Both the position numbers and the translations under genes were made by a program. Of a stretch of 64,000 nt of DNA, positions 10,690 to 12,720 are shown piece after piece (position 1 is the stretch's first letter; each line of letters opens with the position of its first letter). The notes under the pieces were generated by a model. That model was not told the DNA's origin and ran no database searches. It was given only the letters and a program-made list of their open reading frames with translations. This DNA comes from an uncultured Pseudomonadota bacterium (GTDB lineage: Bacteria; Pseudomonadota; Gammaproteobacteria; CAJXQU01): NCBI GenBank assembly GCA_913058255.1, contig CAJXQU010000001.1, positions 310,001-374,000 of the forward strand, read 5' to 3'.

Positions 10690-11289
10690 ATGAGCGTACT
10701 CGTTACAAAAAAAGCACCTAATTTCACAGCAGCAGCTGTTATGCCTGACGGCAGCATTAAAGAAGATTTCAGCTTGTCTGATTACCGTGGACAATACGTT
10801 GTCCTATTTTTCTACCCATTAGATTTCACTTTCGTATGTCCTTCAGAGTTAATCGCACATGATCACCGTGTTAAAAAATTCGAAGAGCTTGGTGTTCAAG
10901 TTATCGGTGTTTCTATCGATTCACAATTCACTCACCACGCATGGCGTGAAACGCCAATCGACAAAGGTGGTATTGGCCAAGTGGGCTATCCATTGGTAGC
11001 TGATACAACTCAAAAAATCATGAAGAAATATGATATGAAACATCCTGCAGGTGTTGCATTGCGTGGCTCTTTCTTGATCGACAAAGAAGGAATTGTTCAA
11101 TCTCAAAGTGTGAACAATCTACCGCTAGGCCGTAACGTTGATGAAATGGTACGTTTGGTTGAAGCGCTTCAGTTTACTGAAGAGCATGGTGAAGTTTGTC
11201 CAGCAGGTTGGAACAAAGGTGACAAAGGTATGGTTCCTGATGCTGATGGCGTTGCTAACTACCTGTCTGATAACGCAGATAAGCTATAA
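10690..11289 (+). CDS. Typical 2-Cys peroxiredoxin (AhpC/Prx1 type)
   Basis: 199 residues. The peroxidatic cysteine C50 sits in DFTFVCPSE and the resolving cysteine C170 in GEVCPAGW. GGVG-like and YF-like sensitivity motifs of eukaryotic enzymes are not obvious. It reduces hydrogen peroxide and organic peroxides, probably with electrons from a thioredoxin system; trxB lies 0.5 kb downstream. AGAGGAG is the ribosome binding site. The promoter region carries an OxyR-type operator and a strong terminator follows, so it is a single-gene transcript. Confidence 0.95.
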   Translation: MSVLVTKKAPNFTAAAVMPDGSIKEDFSLSDYRGQYVVLFFYPLDFTFVCPSELIAHDHRVKKFEELGVQVIGVSIDSQFTHHAWRETPIDKGGIGQVGYPLVADTTQKIMKKYDMKHPAGVALRGSFLIDKEGIVQSQSVNNLPLGRNVDEMVRLVEALQFTEEHGEVCPAGWNKGDKGMVPDADGVANYLSDNADKL

Positions 11290-11316: not shown

Positions 11317-11348
11317 AAAAAAGGGTGGTTTTAACCGCCCTTTTTTTT
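11317..11348 (+). terminator. Strong Rho-independent terminator after peroxiredoxin gene
   Basis: An A-rich stretch with GGGTGG (11323-11328) pairs with CCGCCC (11335-11340) and is followed by eight T. The A/T flanks make it usable in both directions. Confidence 0.85.
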
Positions 11349-11375
11349 CCAGAAATTTAATGAGAGGTAATTCCC

Positions 11376-11663
11376 ATGTCAAACGAAGGCTACCACGAAC
11401 CCGTTAATGAACTTTCGGATCAAACACGTGACATGCACCGCGCTATAACATCGTTGATGGAAGAGCTAGAAGCGGTCGACTGGTATAATCAACGAGTCGA
11501 TGCTTGTAAGGATGAAGAGCTTAAAGCCATACTCGAGCATAATCGCGATGAAGAAAAAGAACATGCAGCGATGGTTTTGGAATGGATTCGGCGACAAGAT
11601 CCTTCTATGGATAAAGAGTTAAAAGACTATCTGTTCACCGACAAGCCGATTGCCCACACATAA
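11376..11663 (+). CDS. Encapsulated-ferritin-like (EncFtn) protein without targeting tail
   Basis: 95 residues, closely resembling the Rhodospirillum rubrum encapsulated ferritin over its whole core (HEPVNELSD, MEELEAVDWYNQRVDA, LEHNRDEEKEHAAM). The ferroxidase ligands of that protein, two glutamates and a histidine, are present as E30, E60 and H63. EncFtn proteins form decameric rings that oxidise Fe(II) and normally reside inside an encapsulin shell, directed by a C-terminal Leu/Thr/Val/Gly/Ser-Leu type peptide. This one ends shortly after YLFTDKPIAHT with no such tail, and no encapsulin gene is nearby. It follows the peroxiredoxin gene behind a terminator, so it likely has its own promoter. 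Iron detoxification or ferroxidase role is inferred. Confidence 0.88.
   Translation: MSNEGYHEPVNELSDQTRDMHRAITSLMEELEAVDWYNQRVDACKDEELKAILEHNRDEEKEHAAMVLEWIRRQDPSMDKELKDYLFTDKPIAHT

Positions 11664-11706: not shown

Positions 11707-12720
<1,014 letters not shown>

Follow-up and report, generated by a model that had tools for sequence, protein, structure and literature searches.

The gene studied here lies in a window of 64 kb, by which is meant the whole stretch of DNA that was analysed, and encodes a protein of the encapsulated-ferritin (EncFtn) type. Upstream of it lie a peroxiredoxin gene and then a hairpin with a U-run, and thioredoxin reductase follows downstream:

10690..11289, + strand: typical 2-Cys peroxiredoxin (Prx), from AhpC/TSA and 1-cysPrx_C profile matches; linked to EncFtn in 3/3 genomes of the genus
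11317..11346, + strand: 13-bp hairpin with a U-run (intrinsic-terminator type) between the Prx and EncFtn genes
11362..11367, + strand: putative ribosome binding site GAGAGG, read from the sequence, 8 nt upstream of the ATG
11376..11663, + strand: tail-less EncFtn (s-FLP class), 95 residues, start ATG, stop TAA; supported by PF22277, TIGR04535, the ligands E30/E60/H63/Y37, an AlphaFold (AF2) model and Foldseek
11640..11660, + strand: short end DKPIAHT after the YLFT element, without a targeting peptide, from a comparison of homologue ends
11764..12720, + strand: thioredoxin reductase TrxB, directly 3' of EncFtn in 3/3 genomes of the genus

The Prx-EncFtn-TrxB arrangement is common to all three genomes of the genus. 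The peroxiredoxin had been described as ‘OxyR-type’ in the first-pass annotation, but it is a typical AhpC/2-Cys enzyme and nothing links it to OxyR. The hairpin, absent from the list produced by the consensus scan, keeps its position in three congeners, that of the window included; its sequence differs among them, the long U-run is found in the window copy only, and it is possibly an attenuator or a processing site.

Profile searches place the 95-residue product firmly among the EncFtn-like proteins, with 153.3 bits against PF22277 (cut-off 27, E 1.5e-45) and 139.3 bits against TIGR04535 (cut-off 125). It falls outside the rubrerythrin family PF02915, at 18.5 bits against a cut-off of 22.8. 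The reference for its functional residues is the EncFtn of R. rubrum (Rru_A0973, of the FLP-TP type; 5DA5), whose ferroxidase, iron entry and iron exit residues have been named (PMC5012862). The R. rubrum ferroxidase residues E32, Y39, E62 and H65 correspond to E30, Y37, E60 and H63, which are carried on two helices; entry residues E31 and E34 correspond to E29 and E32; and exit residues H57, E61 and E64 correspond to H55, E59 and E62. All of these positions are invariant in 97 relatives (77 short and 20 tailed or fused), and the EncFtn core and the E30/E60/H63 ligands recognized at first pass are thus confirmed. The two proteins share the core fold, all ligands and about 62-65% identity over the core, whereas Rru_A0973 is 140 residues long, carries a long tail with a targeting peptide, has an encapsulin partner and lacks a cysteine at position 44. 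Archaeal fusion-FLP encapsulins (5N5E / 2E0Z) likewise contain a decamer-forming EncFtn domain, but one joined to the shell protein; the open reading frame in the window carries no shell domain.

The closest solved relative by sequence is 3K6C (NE0167 of Nitrosomonas europaea), which aligns end to end and is followed, among solved structures, by the encapsulated ferritins of R. rubrum and Haliangium. Like the window protein, NE0167 has 95 residues, the same ferroxidase residues and a short KPIAH end devoid of a targeting peptide; the two are about 83% identical and show no sequence differences that matter. A functional test of NE0167 was not found in the literature searched. The AF2 monomer (pLDDT 82.8) consists of helices 15-43, 47-74 and 77-86, and its top Foldseek match is again 3K6C (82-83% identity), with a TM of about 0.72. 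This moderate superposition perhaps reflects a native fold completed by neighbouring subunits. By homology to 3K6C and the R. rubrum EncFtn, the window protein is predicted to form a D5 decamer with ferroxidase activity. It belongs, by its EncFtn core, its short end and the lack of a targeting peptide, to the same group as 3K6C, a group that already bears two published names, ‘Non-EncFtn’ (PMC5012862) and ‘s-FLP’ (PMC11202242), and has had a solved member since 3K6C was released in 2009. The novelty implied at first pass was therefore overstated: the window protein is an unremarkable member of a class already known, though poorly understood, of small iron-oxidizing proteins that resemble encapsulin cargo without carrying its targeting signal.

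The chain stops seven residues past YLFT, and a targeting peptide was sought in all three frames downstream of the stop, none of which holds anything resembling one; both observations had been made in outline before and hold in full. The distance from the EncFtn stop to the start of trxB, 100 nt in the window, is only about 18 nt in two congeners, which leaves no room for a tail in those two. That tailed relatives exist is the sole point in favour of a tail removed by a false stop, a frameshift, a sequencing artefact or gene decay. Orthologues share this end point: the 61 short homologues in a sample of the window's bacterial class all finish 5-14 residues past a fixed point of the core, and of the 80 nearest loci (GTDB genomes) nearly every one has the ending YLFTDKPIAH-x. 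Between congeners, 48-60 of the 95 codons differ, and just 8 of these are amino-acid changes (dN 0.045-0.05, with synonymous sites saturated), so that the gene is under strong purifying selection and is maintained. Because homologue ends are alike, no tail follows the stop and dN is low, the stop is real; a homologue of 95 residues with a solved structure points the same way, and an artefactual or decaying gene can be dismissed for practical purposes.

The assembly that contains the window (2.78 Mb in 33 contigs, 96% complete) extends the absence of an encapsulin gene, first noted for the 64 kb, to the whole genome. Neither a PF04454 encapsulin, for which control genomes gave matches in the same profile search, nor an SrpI-like family-2 shell (PF19307), whose model matched in five genomes of the class, was detected in it. 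Nor is there a second EncFtn copy anywhere in the genome. With neither a targeting peptide nor an encapsulin gene, the window protein is not of the FLP-TP type, and as a 95-residue frame bearing no shell protein it is not a fusion-FLP encapsulin. Both other genomes of the genus likewise have a short EncFtn and lack an encapsulin. For iron storage the genome encodes a non-heme ferritin, FtnA, and two bacterioferritins (Bfr); on contig C18, FtnA and a bacterioferritin gene pair are less than 6 kb apart (L233:4021-9565).

Whether a shell encloses short EncFtns was left open by a 2024 review (PMC11202242). The question was addressed here with 276 genomes of the window's class (Gammaproteobacteria, as inferred from its closest matches), in which all strong EncFtn loci were classed by their C-terminal end; targeting-tail motifs in this sample include LGIGSL, LGVGSL and LNIGSL. 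A short EncFtn occurs in 61 genomes and a tailed or fused one in 17, making the short form the commoner in the class; one further genome has a motif-less basic tail of 33 residues. A PF04454 encapsulin occurs in 17 genomes, and these coincide without exception with the 17 that carry a tailed or fused EncFtn (Fisher p 2e-27, 276 genomes). Encapsulin is absent from 57 of the 61 short-EncFtn genomes, and in the remaining four a second EncFtn, tailed or fused, adjoins the shell gene; across the 276 genomes an encapsulin is never accompanied by a short EncFtn only, and the presence of the two is statistically independent (p = 1). Another 50 short-EncFtn genomes, whose completeness is not given, contain no encapsulin. 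In a phylum sample of 397 genomes, two tailed EncFtns adjoin shell genes. Tail-less forms occur in 23 genomes of that sample; two of these encode an encapsulin, which lies away from the EncFtn and next to a DyP peroxidase that bears a targeting tail. Short EncFtns thus nearly always occur without any shell.

These counts bear on the idea that the protein is carried by a shell, either one encoded far away, as proposed at first pass, or one of a kind not yet described, which would hold it through its conserved DKPIAH end in place of a classical targeting peptide. The conservation of that end, with H94 present in 51 of 77 short sequences, would suit such a role, as would two genomes in which a family-2 (SrpI-like) shell coincides with a tail-less or motif-less EncFtn. 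The window's own genome, however, has neither shell family, and each encapsulin of the class sample is matched by a tailed or fused EncFtn of its own; SrpI-like shells occur in just 5 of 276 genomes, so that their overlap with tail-less or motif-less copies is about what chance would give. A family-2 shell was accordingly rejected as host, and cargo of any remote shell is very improbable.

A few loci depart from the common pattern. One genome (G065, locus L148) encodes an EncFtn with the 33-residue tail, rich in Lys, Ala and Pro and without a targeting motif, and has an SrpI-like shell and no PF04454 match. One genus (L208-L211) encodes a tail-less EncFtn-like protein that has diverged from the others (PF22277, 83-86 bits); in two of its genomes an encapsulin lies at another site, next to a DyP peroxidase bearing a targeting peptide. 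In genome G176, an EncFtn core runs into encapsulin profile positions 116-252, the first 115 being missing (L182:5483-6958, minus strand); this bacterial frame encodes a partial and probably broken EncFtn-encapsulin fusion, a type of protein reported in archaea only (PMC8346489).

A tree of the EncFtn core, poorly resolved with its 85 columns, contains several changes between tailed and tail-less labels, at least two of which are forced by well-supported branches. A second tail-less lineage (L203-L207), found mainly outside the window's class, is nested in the tailed clade; its genomes lack an encapsulin. As far as these sequences indicate, the tail-less forms do not stem from one late loss.

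The wider gene neighbourhood offers a functional setting. In one congener (locus L232) the cluster reads rubrerythrin, RFO (an Fe-S oxidoreductase), DUF3501, Prx, EncFtn and TrxB, its genes named by sequence likeness to profile-confirmed L153 proteins and by a DUF3501 match; the window retains the Prx-EncFtn-TrxB part. Several genomes of the class have the order rubrerythrin, RFO, EncFtn and DUF3501, with the short EncFtn usually placed between RFO and DUF3501; the gaps, taken from one profile match to the next, are 42-115 nt. A same-strand DUF3501 gene no more than 1 kb from EncFtn was found at 17 of 61 short loci, which span 15 families of the sample, and at none of the 18 tailed loci (p 0.009). 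Of the genomes with the short form, 44 of 61 have DUF3501, vs 82 of 215 others (p 4e-6, uncorrected for kinship). Three genomes (G014, G176 and G218) combine a short copy in the rubrerythrin cluster with a second copy, tailed or fused, that accompanies the shell. The cluster had been described without EncFtn, as the ‘aerobic-type’ rubrerythrin cluster (PMC5114695), a peroxide-defence operon into which, by the present comparison, a short EncFtn is often inserted and which in the congener stands upstream of Prx-EncFtn-TrxB; that paper makes no mention of EncFtn, and no report linking short EncFtns to rubrerythrin or DUF3501 was found in the open-access literature searched. The window's own genome has no DUF3501, either lost or never present, and the link therefore rests on descent and on relatives. 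For the majority of loci the neighbourhood shows no conservation, and other neighbours are mostly scattered. A peroxiredoxin beside EncFtn was rejected as a general rule, being confined to this genus and one distant Prx.

Ring formation and ferroxidase activity are known from relatives. The R. rubrum ring of ten subunits assembles in an iron-driven manner, and a tail-truncated form makes decamers and oxidizes iron in vitro without a shell, although the iron is not stored (PMC5012862). The earlier statement, which placed the active ring of known EncFtn within encapsulin, was consequently too strong. The shell-free protein precipitates iron and shows no peroxidase activity with o-phenylenediamine (PMC5012862), which makes the free ring a poor store and perhaps no peroxidase.

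The main rival to a ferroxidase role is a rubrerythrin-like one, in which the di-iron site would stay loaded with iron, reduce peroxide (or oxygen) and be re-reduced by a partner donor, for instance RFO or, in this genus, thioredoxin/TrxB. Linkage to rubrerythrin, RFO and DUF3501, and within the genus to TrxB and Prx, would fit this scheme, and so would Cys44, which is near-invariant in short EncFtns (73/77) and not in tailed or fused ones (6/20) and may have a redox or metal role specific to the class. The retained iron entry and exit residues argue against it, as does the failure of the R. rubrum homologue with o-phenylenediamine, although that protein lacks the cysteine and the donor was artificial. 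On this evidence a rubrerythrin-like reductase is rather unlikely, albeit worth keeping in view.

The window protein is instead likely to be a shell-free, decameric di-iron ferroxidase of the s-FLP/Non-EncFtn class, serving in peroxide and iron defence. By homology to 3K6C and the R. rubrum EncFtn, ten subunits would form a ring with ferroxidase sites at the subunit interfaces, and the ring would act as a free cytosolic protein within a peroxide-defence gene set. Fe2+ released under oxidative stress would be bound and then oxidized, presumably with O2 or H2O2, and its removal would limit Fenton chemistry in the cell; the Fe3+ might be turned over in small amounts or passed to the ferritin and bacterioferritins that the genome encodes. 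That the protein is free in the cytosol and acts against iron and peroxide had been one of the options at first pass, and it is the one favoured by a genome with no shell gene and a survey that pairs shells with tailed or fused forms. The lack of DUF3501 in the window's genome, the poorly conserved neighbourhood of most loci and the restriction of the Prx-TrxB link to the genus count against it, as do the iron precipitation and missing peroxidase activity of the shell-free R. rubrum protein.

Since short EncFtns are nearly always shell-less and often sit beside peroxide-defence genes, the tail-less proteins as a class are probably free anti-oxidant iron enzymes. A bolder proposal, which we advance tentatively and think may well be wrong, is that tail-less rings are a dedicated shell-free part of the aerobic-type rubrerythrin module (Rbr, RFO, DUF3501, sometimes Prx and TrxB), trading electrons or iron with their partners via traits of the class such as Cys44 and the PIAH end, and that tail and shell were jointly gained or lost more than once.

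Two results are new as far as the literature searched shows: the tabulation of shells against tails, and the association of short EncFtns with the rubrerythrin/DUF3501 cluster. Genome content answers the question posed in the 2024 review, in that shells accompany tailed or fused EncFtns and not short ones, and the ‘encapsulin-associated’ annotation (TIGR04535) of short EncFtn genes is misleading. The rubrerythrin/DUF3501 operon link gives the short EncFtn a testable functional setting.
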